This document shows positions 1 through 20,238 of a DNA stretch of 32,300 nucleotides, piece after piece. The notes under the pieces are model-generated. The model was not told the DNA's origin. It did not search any database and worked only from the letters and a program-made list of their open reading frames with translations. Every line of letters begins with the position of its first letter. The first letter of the stretch is position 1. The stretch comes from a virus, in IMG/VR virus record IMGVR_UViG_3300034092_003340, positions 1-32,300 of that record; one strand, 5' to 3'. The translations under genes were made by a program, and so were the position numbers.

Positions 1-896
1 GGGCAGCAAGCATTAATAAACTTGTTGAAGCTGCAGAAAAATTGAGTACACCAAAAGCTTCATACGGAGACGATCGTATTTGGAGCCCAGTAGTTGATAA
101 AGCTGGAAACGGTTATGCCGTGATTCGCTTTTTACCAGCTCTTGAAGGTGAAGATCTGCCATGGGTTCGCTTTTGGGATCATGGTTTTAAGGGACCAACT
201 GGTCGTTGGTACATTGAAAATTCTCTTACCAGTATTGGTCAACCTGACCCGGTAAGTGAGATCAATAGCGTGCTTTGGAACAGCGGCAATGAAAAAGACA
301 AAGAGATTGCTCGCGAGCGTAAGCGTCGTTTACATTATGTCTCTAATATTCTTGTGCTTAGTGACCCAGCAAATCCAGACAACGAAGGTAAAGTTTTCTT
401 GTACAAATATGGCAAGAAAATCTTTGACAAGATTATGGATATTATGCAACCACAGTTTCAAGATGAGACTCCAATCAACCCATTTGATTTTTGGGCCGGT
501 GCAAACTTCAAGTTGAAAATTCGCAACTTTGAAGGCTATCGTAACTATGATAAGTCTGAATTTGAAGGAGCTTCTGAACTTTTCAGCGGAGACGAAGCTA
601 AGCTTGAGAAGACTTACAATTCGTTGTACTCATTAAAGGACTTTATTGATCCTGCAAACTATAAGTCGTATGCAGATCTTAAACGTAAGCTTGTTGAAGT
701 TCTTGGTGCAGAGGCACTTGCCGGTTCTTCTACTGAACCAGAAAGCGTGAATGTCGCTGCTGCTGCAGTTGGAAAAACAGTTGAACAGACTCCAAGTTAT
801 AAAAGTACTGAATCGACATTCTCTGCATCAAGCACAGATGACGATGATGACGATGAGTCGCTTAGCTACTTTGCAAAGCTTGCTCAAGGTGGTTAA
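1..896 (+). CDS. 32: gp32 single-stranded DNA-binding protein (5' truncated by window)
   Basis: This is the T4-type helix-destabilising protein that coats single-stranded DNA in phage replication, recombination and repair. The reading frame is open from base 3, so the true start lies to the left; the TTG at 42 is not needed as a start. The core contains the family patterns GNGYAVIRFLPA, HGFKGPTGRWYIENSL, NILVLSDPANPDNEGKVF and YKYGKKIFDKI. The tail ends in a Ser/Thr-rich stretch, a run of six aspartates and a short SYFAKLAQGG end, which matches the acidic C-terminal arm that contacts partner proteins. No cysteine is visible, so the His-Cys3 zinc site of T4 gp32 is absent. This looks like the cyanophage-type version. 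It is followed by a hairpin terminator. Confidence 0.93.
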   Translation, partial: AASINKLVEAAEKLSTPKASYGDDRIWSPVVDKAGNGYAVIRFLPALEGEDLPWVRFWDHGFKGPTGRWYIENSLTSIGQPDPVSEINSVLWNSGNEKDKEIARERKRRLHYVSNILVLSDPANPDNEGKVFLYKYGKKIFDKIMDIMQPQFQDETPINPFDFWAGANFKLKIRNFEGYRNYDKSEFEGASELFSGDEAKLEKTYNSLYSLKDFIDPANYKSYADLKRKLVEVLGAEALAGSSTEPESVNVAAAAVGKTVEQTPSYKSTESTFSASSTDDDDDDESLSYFAKLAQGG

Positions 897-962: not shown

Positions 963-1238
963 ATGATCTTTCTAATAAAGGTATTTACATACTTAAATTG
1001 TACTGATTGTTTACGTCATCTAAAAACACTACGTGACTATTGTGAACGCACTCCTACAAGTTTGCAAATAATTGATATTGACAAGGAAGAAAATATACCG
1101 CTTATATTTGAATATAAAATAGATGGCATACCGCACACAATATGCTATAATATACGTGGTGAAATTATGCATAGTTTTCCAGGAGTAAAAACTCCTGAAG
1201 AGTTTGACAATATTGTATATTATCGAACTGCAGATTAA
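963..1238 (+). CDS. Thioredoxin/glutaredoxin-like small redox protein
   Basis: This 91-aa protein has the size of phage thioredoxins such as T4 NrdC. A CxxC pair (C13-T-D-C16) lies after the first beta strand, and a GIPHT segment with a likely cis-proline at P57 sits where thioredoxin folds have theirs. The family reduces disulfides, for example in phage ribonucleotide reductase, but the substrate here is unknown. The ATG is 17 nt after the gp32 hairpin. A degenerate TATATACT (949-956) sits 6 nt before the ATG and could be a promoter, but the match is poor. The 3' end overlaps the convergent tape-measure gene by four bases (1235-1238), so its mRNA may be affected by antisense transcription. 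Confidence 0.72.
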   Translation: MIFLIKVFTYLNCTDCLRHLKTLRDYCERTPTSLQIIDIDKEENIPLIFEYKIDGIPHTICYNIRGEIMHSFPGVKTPEEFDNIVYYRTAD

Positions 1239-2947
1239 TAACCCATTGCACTGCCAGTTAGTATTGGCATCATTTGTGGCATATTATTATTTACATTGCT
1301 GCTACTAATATTATTAGTATTGCCGCCATTATTGTTATTAACAACTATCGTTGGTGCTATATTTGCAACGTTGCCGGCAGTCGCTAGGGTGTTGCCAGTT
1401 GTTAATGGTGTTGCTTTGATGTTTGCTTTCCACTTAAAGTCTGAAGCAGCATACTCATCCCATGAACCATAACCTGCAGCCATTGCCTTTTCAGTTTTGC
1501 TTAGTTCGGTAAAATTATTTGTAGATGTAGCCTTTAATATTTTTTCAGAAGACGTTGCAGCGGTTGCTAATTTTTCTGATGTAGAATTAGTTGATTCTTT
1601 TTCTTTTGGAGAACTGCTGTATGCATACTCATATAAAGAATCTGGTATTGCTAATTTTAAATAATAAGACATTCCTCCTTTTGCCTTTGGATCTGGTAAT
1701 ACTGCTCGTAATACAGCCTTATTAAAATTATTTACAACTTCACTCATATCATCTGAAATAGTTGTTAATGAATCCATTGCCGAAGTAAAAAATACACTAA
1801 TTTTATCAGGTAGTGATGTAAAGAAATCAGTAACCATCATAGGTATTTCACCTATAAATTTACCAATTTCAGCATACATTCCAAACAGTGGATCAATTAT
1901 ATACTTTGAATATAAACCAGTAAAGGAAAAACTATCTAAAAATTTAGAAAATTCTGAAAATCCAAGTTTTTCAGATACCCAAGATATTCCATCTTTTACA
2001 AGATCTAGCAGACCTCCGATTAATCCATCAAATGCACCAACTAAAAACCCCTTTAATCCACCGATTAATCCATCTTTCTTAAAGCCGTCAATTGCACCCA
2101 TAATACCACTTATTATTCCAGTGAGTGCTAAAGTAAATGGACCGCCTAAAAATTTAAATAAACCAGCAAATTTGCTTCCAAGCGTCAAACCAATCTTAAA
2201 AAACCTAAACATCCCGCCAAATATATCCGTAAGAGCAGAAAAGGCGCTTCCTATTATTCCAGATGTAGCTGTTATAGTCTTTAATACTGGTGAATTTCCA
2301 AATATTGAAAAGATTTTACCAAGTAGCATAAAAATTTTACTTGATTTAAATTTATTTAAGAGACCGCCAATCTTTTCTATTACAGTAAATGTTCCTTTAA
2401 ATAAAGGAGAATTTTTTAAACTTAATACAATGCCAGTAAAAAATTTGCTAACTGTAGAAAAAACACTAGATATTTTTTGAAATAGTTTTGCATTTTTTAG
2501 TGCAGCAAATATTGGAGACGTGAGCTGAGATATAAATCCTGTTACAAATCCACCCATTAATGCAGCCACAGACAGCAATCCCCCAAATATTCCGCCTGGC
2601 ATTTCAAATTTAGTTGTTTTAACACCACTCTTAGTCTTTTCTGGTTTTAACTTTCCAAGTGCGTCAAGCAATTCATCACGATTTTCACGCTCTTGTAATT
2701 TGTTGCCTTCTAATCGCTTTGCTAACACTACATTAGATCGTATTAATACATCAAATTTGCCTTTTAAATCGCCTGCTATGCCTACTAATTTATCTAAAAA
2801 AGTAGGAACATCTGTCGTATTTTCTTTAGCAACATTTGATGCAAGTGTAAAATCATAGTTATCGATTGTATCAAGAATAAGATCTTGAGACAAATTAGAA
2901 CTTTGTAATTCTTTTACAACCTGGGCTAGTGACGATTCTGCGGTCAT
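1235..2947 (-). CDS. 29: Tail tape measure protein, gp29-like
   Basis: This 570-aa protein is close to the 590 aa of T4 gp29, which sets tail tube length and sits in the baseplate hub. The N-terminal 110 residues are helical and charged. Residues about 115-345 are glycine- and phenylalanine-rich with repeated hydrophobic helices of the kind seen in tape measures. The C-terminus is Asn/Thr-rich and low complexity. Position supports the call: it follows gp26 and its frameshifted extension, as tape measures follow tail-assembly chaperones in other phages. Its ATG overlaps the TGA of the extension (ATGA), which suggests translational coupling. The hydrophobic region could suggest a membrane protein, but length and context favour a tape measure. 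Confidence 0.72.
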   Translation of the reverse strand: MTAESSLAQVVKELQSSNLSQDLILDTIDNYDFTLASNVAKENTTDVPTFLDKLVGIAGDLKGKFDVLIRSNVVLAKRLEGNKLQERENRDELLDALGKLKPEKTKSGVKTTKFEMPGGIFGGLLSVAALMGGFVTGFISQLTSPIFAALKNAKLFQKISSVFSTVSKFFTGIVLSLKNSPLFKGTFTVIEKIGGLLNKFKSSKIFMLLGKIFSIFGNSPVLKTITATSGIIGSAFSALTDIFGGMFRFFKIGLTLGSKFAGLFKFLGGPFTLALTGIISGIMGAIDGFKKDGLIGGLKGFLVGAFDGLIGGLLDLVKDGISWVSEKLGFSEFSKFLDSFSFTGLYSKYIIDPLFGMYAEIGKFIGEIPMMVTDFFTSLPDKISVFFTSAMDSLTTISDDMSEVVNNFNKAVLRAVLPDPKAKGGMSYYLKLAIPDSLYEYAYSSSPKEKESTNSTSEKLATAATSSEKILKATSTNNFTELSKTEKAMAAGYGSWDEYAASDFKWKANIKATPLTTGNTLATAGNVANIAPTIVVNNNNGGNTNNISSSNVNNNMPQMMPILTGSAMGY

Positions 2948-3824
2948 TTTTTACGTTTTTCTTCTTCTTCTCTTATGTGTTTTATTAGCATTGCAATATA
3001 AATTTCCCTCTCCCATGGTATCATTGTATCTAATTCAGTTAAACTATATTTGTGATGCTGCATTAATGCAAAATTTGTTTGATAATAGTTAGACAACGAT
3101 TCATGCGAGAGGGCTATTCGAAAAAAGCTTGTGTGCCTACAAGTGTAATATCATTGTCAGTCTTACAACCAGTACAATTAAATTTTACACTATGTTGTAG
3201 TTTAGGAGAGTTTGATATATACTCTTCAATTTTATTAAGTTGAGCTCGGCTTAAGCTGTTAACAAATGTTAGCAACTCTTCGCGAGACGACTGTGCTGAG
3301 GGATACACTCCACTGTCATCAAAGATTGAATCAATTGAAGCAATAAGCATATTTGTTATTGTGTCCATATCAACTTCAGATGTGCTTATAATCGTTGACA
3401 TATCATTTACACGTATATGTCTTAGAACCACACCAATTTTATCAGTTAACATAATTTTGTTGCTAATTTCTTTAACTGGCCACGTTACTTCAATATCATC
3501 AATATTAACAGACACCTCGTTGTAAGTTTCACAATGATCGCACTTACATTTGATATTGCTAACTTCACCTACGCTCTTTGCTCGTAACTTTAAGAAAATA
3601 TACTCTAAGTCAAACGAAGTCAAATCGTTTGGGTCAACGACACCGAATGTACAGGCTCGTATAATGTCTTTAATCGCGGACATCATTTCTGATGAGCTGT
3701 TTGACTCCTGTGCGAGCAGCAATATTTTTTCTTCCTTTACAAGAAAAGGACGATATTCAATTGACTGTGATGTAGATGGTACAGTCAATACATATTTTGG
3801 GGATTCTAGGATTGGTAATGGCAT
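2944..3824 (-). CDS. gp26 -1 frameshift product with gp51-like/tail-chaperone extension (predicted)
   Basis: Slippage by -1 at 3120-3126 would join residues 1-235 of gp26 to a 58-residue frame ending at TGA 2946-2944, giving 293 aa. The extension begins RIALSHESLSNYYQTNF, continues with LMQHHKYSLTELDTMIPWER and ends in a charged EEEEKRKK tail. The central Leu-Thr-Glu-Leu-Asp then Pro-Trp-Glu-Arg pattern resembles small proteins coded just before phage tape measures. The frame has no ATG before residue 20 of the extension, so independent initiation would lose its conserved-looking start. Lambda G/GT and P2 E/E' make tail-assembly chaperones in this way. T4 codes gp26 and gp51 separately. The frameshift is inferred from sequence only. 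Confidence 0.72.
3114..3824 (-). CDS. 26: gp26-like baseplate hub assembly protein
   Basis: This 236-aa protein belongs to the T4 gp26-type baseplate family (T4 gp26 is 208 aa), which acts in assembly of the central hub. It opens with MPLPILESPKYVLTVPSTSQ and has an all-alpha middle part. Two cysteine clusters, C93-x-C95-xx-C98 and C217-xx-C220, look like a zinc site. The last codons are GCT TTT TTC GAA TAG, and the slippery run lies four codons from the stop. An AATAAATA element (3835-3842, minus strand) lies 10 nt before the ATG, in the short gap after the tube-like gene, so this gene may have its own late promoter. Confidence 0.75.
   Translation of the reverse strand: MPLPILESPKYVLTVPSTSQSIEYRPFLVKEEKILLLAQESNSSSEMMSAIKDIIRACTFGVVDPNDLTSFDLEYIFLKLRAKSVGEVSNIKCKCDHCETYNEVSVNIDDIEVTWPVKEISNKIMLTDKIGVVLRHIRVNDMSTIISTSEVDMDTITNMLIASIDSIFDDSGVYPSAQSSREELLTFVNSLSRAQLNKIEEYISNSPKLQHSVKFNCTGCKTDNDITLVGTQAFFE
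3120..3126 (-). other. -1 programmed ribosomal frameshift site T TTT TTC
   Basis: In the gp26 frame the codons read GCT TTT TTC GAA TAG, so the heptamer T_TTT_TTC fits the X_XXY_YYZ rule exactly. The next codon after a -1 slip is CGA at 3120-3118, and the frame stays open to 2944. A 5-bp hairpin (CTTGT/ACAAG, about 3129-3144) lies just upstream of the heptamer on the minus strand, with an AGG in its loop that could act as an internal Shine-Dalgarno-like stimulator. No clear downstream stem or pseudoknot was seen by eye. Confidence 0.75.
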
Positions 3825-3848: not shown

Positions 3849-4376
3849 TTATTTCTTAATATCTAATTTATCATACGTAAATACTACAGATATTTTTTGT
3901 ATTGTTGATTCAGCATTATTATCTAGTTCAATAGAATTCAAAGTTATTGGATATGCGTTTTGCAATTTAACATTTTGAATTTCTTTGTCATTTTCGTTTA
4001 GCTGCGTAATAGTAATATCAGTCTTGTAAGTTTGGTGATCTTTAGCGAGTAGATAGGAATCAATGTTTATTATTTTTTTCATCCATTCATCTATCGCCTT
4101 TTTAATGGCGTTATTATTAGTTGAAATAAATGTCATTGTTACATCATCTTCAATATAACCAGTTGGTATTTTTAATGGACGACGAGTGCCTATATCATAG
4201 TCTAATGTTGTAATTTGTTTTCCAGGTATATTAACAGACTCACATAAAAATGAAATATCCCTTGATACAGATGATGAACCCGGTAAACTAGCAAATGTTA
4301 CTGAAAATCTATTTGGACGCGCTAAGCCCCCATTTCGCATTATTGCGGATTTAAAATCATTTATTGAAGATGACAT
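3849..4376 (-). CDS. Tail-tube-fold protein, gp54/gp19 family
   Basis: This 175-aa protein has the size of T4 gp19 tail tube (163 aa). Its N-terminal GGLARPNRFSVTFASLP, the CESVNIPGKQITTLD segment and the C-terminal ISVVFTYDKLD are typical of gp19-like tube proteins. It lies in an operon with gp4, gp26 and the tape measure rather than next to a sheath gene. That makes a baseplate-tube initiator (gp54-like) or a second tube paralogue at least as likely as the main tube subunit. It starts 3 nt after the upstream stop and has no promoter or Shine-Dalgarno of its own, so it is probably co-transcribed with the upstream gene. Confidence 0.6.
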   Translation of the reverse strand: MSSSINDFKSAIMRNGGLARPNRFSVTFASLPGSSSVSRDISFLCESVNIPGKQITTLDYDIGTRRPLKIPTGYIEDDVTMTFISTNNNAIKKAIDEWMKKIINIDSYLLAKDHQTYKTDITITQLNENDKEIQNVKLQNAYPITLNSIELDNNAESTIQKISVVFTYDKLDIKK

Positions 4377-19359: not shown

Positions 19360-20238
19360 ATGTTATTTTCTGCAGTTAAAAGAAAGCGTCGGCGACGTAA
19401 TGGAGGATCAAACGCATGGGCTTTCATTCCACAGGGGGCCTTCACGATGGGGGACTCGTTGGATGGCACACAGAATGCTCCAATTCGCACAGTGACCTTG
19501 GATGCTTTCTATATGGGCAAATATGAAGTGACAAGGGGCGAATGGAATGAAGTACGTACTTGGGGATTAACCAATGGATATACAGATTTAGCTTCAGAAA
19601 TTCCGATGGCTCCATCTATGGGGTTCGGCGCAGCTAGCAATCACCCTATTGGTTATGTCACTTGGTTTGATGCTGTAAAATGGTGTAATGCACGTAGTCA
19701 AAAGGAAGGACTTATTCCAATTTACTACACTGATATCGCTCAGACAACAGTCTACAAGACTGGAAGTACAAATCTACCTAGCACGCATGTAAAATGGGAT
19801 GCTAATGGTTACAGGCTTCCGACTGAGGCTGAATGGGAAAAAGCAGCGAGAGGAGGACTAAACGGAAAAAGATATCCGTTAGGTGATACTATTACACAAG
19901 TTGAAGCAAATTATATGAATTTTACCGGGCAAGGCGGGGCAGATCGGCCGAATACTACTGCAGTAGGAACCTTTCCACCAAACAGCTATGGATTATATGA
20001 TATGGCAGGTAATATTAGTGAGTTGTGTTGGGATTATTATGCAGAAAGTTATAACCCAACCGATCTGACTAATCCACGTGGACCAACTTCAGGTATAAAC
20101 TTTAACAGCAGAGTAGTTCGAGGCGGTAGTTGGGCTTCGACAAACACGACAGATGTAGGAGTAGCACTTAGAAATGGTGGCGGTCAACCAGGATCTTCAA
20201 ACGCGACCGGTTTCCGAGTTGTTCGCAACATAATATAA
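19360..20238 (+). CDS. FGE-sulfatase/C-type-lectin-fold protein, likely adhesin
   Basis: This 292-aa protein has an FGE-sulfatase domain (residues about 18-292). Signature segments are AFIPQGAFTMGDS, FYMGKYEVTRGEW, YRLPTEAEWEKAARGG (151-166), NSYGLYDMAGNISELC (208-223), VVRGGSW (252-258) and GFRVVR (284-289). The two catalytic cysteines of formylglycine-generating enzymes are absent: the segment after GGSW reads ASTNTTDVGVALRN. Binding rather than catalysis is therefore likely. The same fold is used as a variable adhesin in phage Mtd-like and DGR-diversified proteins. The first 16 residues are very basic (KRKRRRRNGG). G runs near the start look richer in G+C than the neighbours, which hints at transfer. 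It starts 1 nt after fibre 1. Confidence 0.82.
   Translation: MLFSAVKRKRRRRNGGSNAWAFIPQGAFTMGDSLDGTQNAPIRTVTLDAFYMGKYEVTRGEWNEVRTWGLTNGYTDLASEIPMAPSMGFGAASNHPIGYVTWFDAVKWCNARSQKEGLIPIYYTDIAQTTVYKTGSTNLPSTHVKWDANGYRLPTEAEWEKAARGGLNGKRYPLGDTITQVEANYMNFTGQGGADRPNTTAVGTFPPNSYGLYDMAGNISELCWDYYAESYNPTDLTNPRGPTSGINFNSRVVRGGSWASTNTTDVGVALRNGGGQPGSSNATGFRVVRNII

Follow-up and report, generated by a model that had tools for sequence, protein, structure and literature searches.

A T4-like phage very likely makes two tail assembly chaperones from one message by −1 frameshifting at a site followed by a covarying RNA stem

Based on sequence, conservation, homology and covariation, we propose that a T4-like phage makes two tail assembly chaperones from a single message by programmed −1 ribosomal frameshifting, with an RNA stem downstream of the slip site and, in many relatives, a Shine-Dalgarno-like sequence upstream of it as stimulators. 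We assign this reading a probability of about 0.92. The window, that is, the whole stretch of 32,300 nucleotides that was analysed (positions 1 to 32,300 of IMG/VR record IMGVR_UViG_3300034092_003340), carries a gp26-type gene that ends on a slippery heptamer and is continued in the −1 frame by a gp51-type domain. All features of the frameshift locus lie on the minus strand, which the initial annotation had left unstated. They are given here from upstream to downstream; h is the first T of the heptamer, from which positions h+n and h−n are counted.

3849–4376, minus strand: upstream gene, gp19-type tail tube protein (PF06841, E=1e-8; phrog_45, E=2e-43)
3114–3824, minus strand: gp26-type putative short chaperone (TAC-N), 236 aa, zero frame, stop codon TAG at 3116–3114 (PF12322 T4_baseplate, E=1.5e-56; phrog_150, E=2e-60; confident AlphaFold2 model, pLDDT 92.9)
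3136–3140, minus strand: position of the candidate Shine-Dalgarno-like stimulator (GTAGG here, weak; GAGGG in many relatives), last base 9 nt before the heptamer; excess over synonymous shuffles, z=−13.5
3120–3126, minus strand: slippery heptamer U UUU UUC in X_XXY_YYZ phase, in phase in 405/405 relatives
3114–3119, minus strand: 6-nt spacer GAAUAG, including the zero-frame stop; pairing depleted at h+10 to h+12 relative to synonymous shuffles
3102–3113, minus strand: 5' arm of the downstream stem, CCCUCUC-G-CAUG (3113–3107 and 3105–3102); 11/11 pairs form in the window; covariation
3006–3017, minus strand: 3' arm of the stem, CAUG-G-GAGAGGG (3017–3014 and 3012–3006), within the PWER-E codons; covariation; MFE −32.3 kcal/mol
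2944–3120, minus strand: 58-codon −1-frame extension (TAC-C or gp51-type domain), first codon CGA at 3120–3118, TGA at 2946–2944 (phrog_634, E=3.4e-27; C-terminus of phrog_150); predicted all-helical by AlphaFold2, pLDDT 79.5
1235–2947, minus strand: downstream gene, 570 aa, probable tape measure protein by position, length variation and fast divergence in relatives

The 3' end of gp26 reads GCT TTT TTC GAA TAG, and the first T of T_TTT_TTC (3126) occupies codon position 3, the phase required of an X_XXY_YYZ site. The initial annotation had placed such a heptamer here, and its sequence, its location at 3126–3120 and its phase proved exact. It had also described 58 open codons after a −1 slip, ending in an ATGA overlap with the next gene; the frame indeed reads FF-R-IALSHESLSNYYQ..., an Arg codon (CGA) plus 57 more, and its TGA overlaps the ATG at 2947. 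Relatives were gathered from IMG/VR through peptide patterns in other parts of gp26, a choice that puts no selection on the heptamer. Among 408 loci with gp26, a few of them public records, 405 have a complete gene end; TTTTTT[C/T/A/G] stands in the same phase in every one, so that the proposed check on heptamer conservation turned up no relative in which the site is destroyed. The extension is detected in the −1 frame in 400 of the 405, and the remaining five end at a contig edge. All members of a 64-member set have NNT as the codon preceding the two Phe codons, whether it encodes Ser, Asp, Asn or Ala, and TTT as the first Phe codon. From codon usage, with the 64 sequences treated as independent and relatedness ignored, the nominal log10 P is about −17 for the former and about −9 for the latter. 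The zero-frame stop ranges from h+7 to h+31 among relatives while the heptamer stays constant. Nine of the loci (L049, L061, L064, L074, L076, L077, L078, L081 and L089) have this stop 31 nt past the heptamer start, which gives gp26 a longer tail reaching into the stem region.

Of 15 named isolates whose arrangement differs from that of T4, 13 have the heptamer, among them phages of Prochlorococcus, Synechococcus, Pelagibacter, Methylophilales, Vibrio, Sinorhizobium, Rhizobium, Stenotrophomonas and Pseudomonas; the remaining two belong to the Ackermannviridae. In these, SFP10 and Menlow (L414:2240-2480 and L415:2240-2480), a −1-frame extension with an MPWHLD motif follows gp26 without a canonical heptamer. 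Shewanella phage Thanatos-2 has the T4 arrangement, and its gp26 (L086:1813-2367) carries an out-of-phase TTTTTTC near its end, possibly a relic of a lost frameshift site.

What does the extension encode? The initial annotation proposed an alignment with gp51, and the two are homologous: phrog_634 (gp51, 'baseplate hub assembly catalyst') is matched both by the 57 residues past the junction Arg (E=3e-27) and by T4 gp51 itself (E=1e-23), and the extension also matches the C-terminal end of phrog_150 (E=8e-6). In T4, gp26 (208 aa) and gp51 (249 aa) are products of separate, divergent genes. PF12322 is common to both (E=9e-64 and E=4e-52, respectively), the two proteins align to each other with E=2e-6, and only gp51 continues into the phrog_634 domain; T4 gp51 is thus a gp26 paralogue with the extension fused to it, and seems to be the fused form encoded by a gene of its own. 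By homology, the two kinds of product for which T4 has two genes are encoded by one gene in the window. An older comparison found cyanophage gp51 to be only about 20% of the length of other T4-type gp51 proteins and to resemble their C-terminus (PMC3037559), a shortness that a frameshift explains. The distance from the heptamer to PWER is 36 residues wherever it is readable (390 loci). Foldseek searches with the gp26 model and the extension model returned nothing significant; the HK97 chaperone 2ob9 appeared against the gp26 model as a weak entry (E=2.5, TM 0.45 by target length), and a PDB sequence search with gp26 gave nothing relevant. The central idea of the initial annotation, that a T4-type phage joins gp26 to a gp51-type domain by −1 frameshifting, is borne out by heptamer conservation, by this homology and by the lack of a conserved separate start.

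That idea had, however, already been published. Vladimirov and colleagues reportedly found frameshifting in several T4-like groups, with genes 26 and 51 separate in T4. According to the papers that report their work (PMC10885494, PMC12846349), Vladimirov, Gautam and Davidson (2022, Virology 566:9-15) assigned the tail assembly chaperones of T4-like phages; some of these phages carry the short and fused chaperone genes separately instead of frameshifting (PMC10885494), and poly-T −1 signals occur in TAC-N genes (PMC12846349). As far as these reports go, our locus is the same in kind, with gp26 as TAC-N, a gp51-type domain as TAC-C and a poly-T slip site, and the frameshift of this gene pair is a known one. 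What is added here is a covarying stem anchored to the slip site and a Shine-Dalgarno-like motif, neither of which was in the initial annotation. In the accessible literature, outside which most subscription papers fall, we found no stimulator of either type described for such genes; Vladimirov et al. (2022) may mention them.

Folding after the heptamer is stronger than in control stretches of gp26, owing to a stem in which h+13..19 and h+21..24 pair with h+114..120 and h+109..112. In the window this corresponds to 3113–3102 with 3017–3006, where 11 of 11 pairs form, 84 nt are enclosed and the spacer after the heptamer is 6 nt, inside the 5–9 nt usual for −1 stimulators (PMC5009743). The 123-nt segment of the window folds at −32.3 kcal/mol, a stability reached by 0 of 200 dinucleotide shuffles. 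Against synonymous shuffles the mean z is −2.50 over 162 non-redundant sequences, and −4.17 for the window. No local hairpin within 90 nt downstream was found in the window (z +0.36); the folding signal there requires the 3' arm at h+120 to be part of the folded segment. Averaged over all 162, the gain in pairing over synonymous shuffles peaks from h+13 to h+22, with a loss at h+10 to h+12.

The stem is kept by paired mutations and seems not to have been described before. Two of its pairs, (h+17,h+116) and (h+14,h+119), join third codon positions, so that changes at both are largely synonymous. In the unselected set of 162 they take the first two places among 717 wobble-wobble tests, with p 4e-14 and 1e-13 against 1e-4 for the next, and with Leu/Glu or Arg codons held fixed their tables read 37/12/3/48 and 69/7/3/27. 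Independent contrasts on a tree from gp26 alone give 13 concordant, 0 discordant and 9 unchanged for the first pair, and 14, 0 and 8 for the second; for columns paired in other ways the outcome is mixed. When 18,336 column pairs are ranked by an APC-corrected G-test, the two come 6th and 8th, most pairs above them being nearby columns upstream in gp26. Over 148 sequences, 73.0% of stem cells are paired versus 69.1% after shuffling, and 108 are double-changed versus 56.5, values that 0 of 500 shuffles reach in either case; sliding the partner to other positions leaves 35–62% of cells paired. In alignment A1 the cells paired, the double-changed cells and the covariation score exceed shuffles, while the count of double-changed pairs and the count of pair types do not. 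The 74-sequence alignment A2 was chosen for pairing, and its RNAalifold result is accordingly not independent evidence, as the unselected 162 are. For the pair h+13/h+120 the full set gives no excess (rank 5519).

Roughly half of the sequences use the h+114..120 partner: 74 of the 162 form six or more of the 7 outer pairs, and it is the best diagonal in 81. Among the 88 not counted in the 74, 79 are predicted to pair the same 5' arm with partners elsewhere, as in P-SSM2-like phages, where AGUAUGGCUCA is predicted to pair with UGAGUCAUACU. The 5' arm keeps its position while the partner changes, so the fixed point is the distance to the heptamer. We think it rather likely that T4-like phages set the chaperone ratio by an RNA stimulator with a 5' arm held at 6 nt past the slip site and a 3' partner that has been re-invented repeatedly (near h+35, h+45, h+65, h+90 and h+115), and that in the window's lineage the pairing may even constrain amino acids. 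In that lineage an Ala/Gly just past the junction tends to accompany a Glu/Gln 36 codons further on, a tendency that on this reading arises because the two bases pair; the base pair behind it shows no excess in the wider set.

Could the frameshift and the stem both be real, and the stem serve mRNA stability or the expression of the next gene? We regard this as improbable, though it is the strongest of the alternatives. Neither the zero-frame stop, which lies anywhere from h+7 to h+31, nor the 3' partner, which differs between lineages, holds its place as the 5' arm does at h+13; what is constant is the distance to the heptamer, which lies within the range typical of stimulators (PMC5009743).

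Many relatives carry a Shine-Dalgarno-like GAGG(G) whose last base lies 9 nt upstream of the heptamer, and pairing with the anti-Shine-Dalgarno sequence is strongest for the 8-mer that begins around h−15. Over the 162 sequences this pairing averages −6.04 kcal/mol, versus −4.55 in synonymous shuffles (z=−13.5). Part of this comes from a conserved Gly codon, and synonymous choice adds further: the Glu before this Gly is GAG in 66 of 98, against a background of 24%, and other Gly codons of gp26 show no comparable excess. The motif is apparently new. The window's own version is only GTAGG, weak at −2.4 kcal/mol, and across the sequences the strength of the motif and that of the structure are uncorrelated. 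The small hairpin that the initial annotation noted directly upstream of the heptamer does exist (CTTGT-AGGCAC-ACAAG), but it is not conserved; all five pairs are kept in 1 of the 162 sequences, and we rejected it as a stimulator.

A different view treats the extension as a gene in its own right (gp51) with its own translation start, perhaps coupled to the gp26 stop; most public records take this view in annotating a separate 'baseplate hub assembly catalyst'. It is also favoured by Rhizobium and Stenotrophomonas phages, where a −1-frame ATG overlaps the gp26 stop (L411:2193, L412:2229 and L413:2220). Yet the −1 frame of 35 among 64 relatives is free of ATG, GTG and TTG between its upstream stop and 51 nt past the heptamer start, the position of the start codon varies where one exists, and the 64 thus show no conserved separate start, which the initial annotation had named as evidence against its reading. 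Moreover, the conserved residues of the extension begin near the junction, T4 gp51 is a full fusion, and a separate start needs no heptamer, which is nevertheless in phase in all 405, including the phages with the overlapping ATG. We consider this explanation very unlikely. As an observation apart, those Rhizobium and Stenotrophomonas phages have both heptamer and ATG, and a free extension protein could also be made in them. Fusion by transcriptional slippage is the least probable account of all: the site is a T run, of 7 or 8 T in some relatives, but it has only six T in 45 of 64, which is short for slippage by bacterial RNA polymerase, such slippage needs no codon phase whereas phase is conserved here, and a stem at a 6-nt spacer and a Shine-Dalgarno-like motif are features that act on ribosomes.

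In the frameshifting model that we favour, most ribosomes would stop at the TAG at 3116–3114 and release gp26 (TAC-N). A fraction would slip one base back on U UUU UUC, promoted by the RNA stem beginning 6 nt after the heptamer and, in many relatives, also by the upstream Shine-Dalgarno-like sequence, and would append the 58-residue gp51-type domain to give TAC-NC. By analogy with lambda gpG and gpGT, the two forms may coat the tape measure protein and recruit tail tube subunits in a set ratio (PMC5009743). The likeness to lambda G/GT and P2 E/E' is one of logic and gene position: a short protein and its −1 extension just before the tape measure gene, here a probable one. Lambda slips on G GGA AAG; here the site is U UUU UUN with a covarying stem. 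The architecture of the cassette, with its Shine-Dalgarno-like motif present in the family but weak in the window, is that of E. coli dnaX, in which a Shine-Dalgarno-like motif lies about 10 nt upstream of a slippery heptamer and a stem follows. The gene and the heptamer differ from those of dnaX, and the present stem, which can have 84 nt between its arms, changes its 3' partner from lineage to lineage. Another comparison is with the TAC frameshift of Vandenendeviridae and Andersonviridae, with a conserved poly-T slip site and an open −1 frame before the tape measure gene; the accessible text of that report describes the motif without a covarying stem (PMC12846349).

What are the implications for these phages and their annotation? 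A 2016 review lists T4 as an exception to the conserved tail-gene frameshift (PMC5009743); judging from sequence, the same gene pair appears to be frameshift-encoded throughout a large, mostly environmental T4-like group. The conserved stem makes the motif observation directly testable, the prediction being that the chaperone ratio depends on wobble bases separated by 99 and 105 nt. Annotations routinely either omit the extension or list it as a 'baseplate hub assembly catalyst' of its own, and none of the public records inspected marks gp26 as a joined, frameshifted gene. The cyanophage records L084 and L085 leave the extension unannotated, with a gap between gp26 and the next gene.

As to the neighbouring genes, the initial annotation had called the downstream gene the tape measure. 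Its position and variable length fit, and we retain the assignment as probable, although a profile match detected no similarity to T4 gp29. A small thioredoxin-like protein (window 963-1238; Pfam matches weak and below cut-off) adjoins the tail genes. Elsewhere in the window (19360-20238), a tail-region protein has, judged by eye, a domain like that of the formylglycine-generating (sulfatase-modifying) enzyme, a fold also known in variable receptor-binding proteins.
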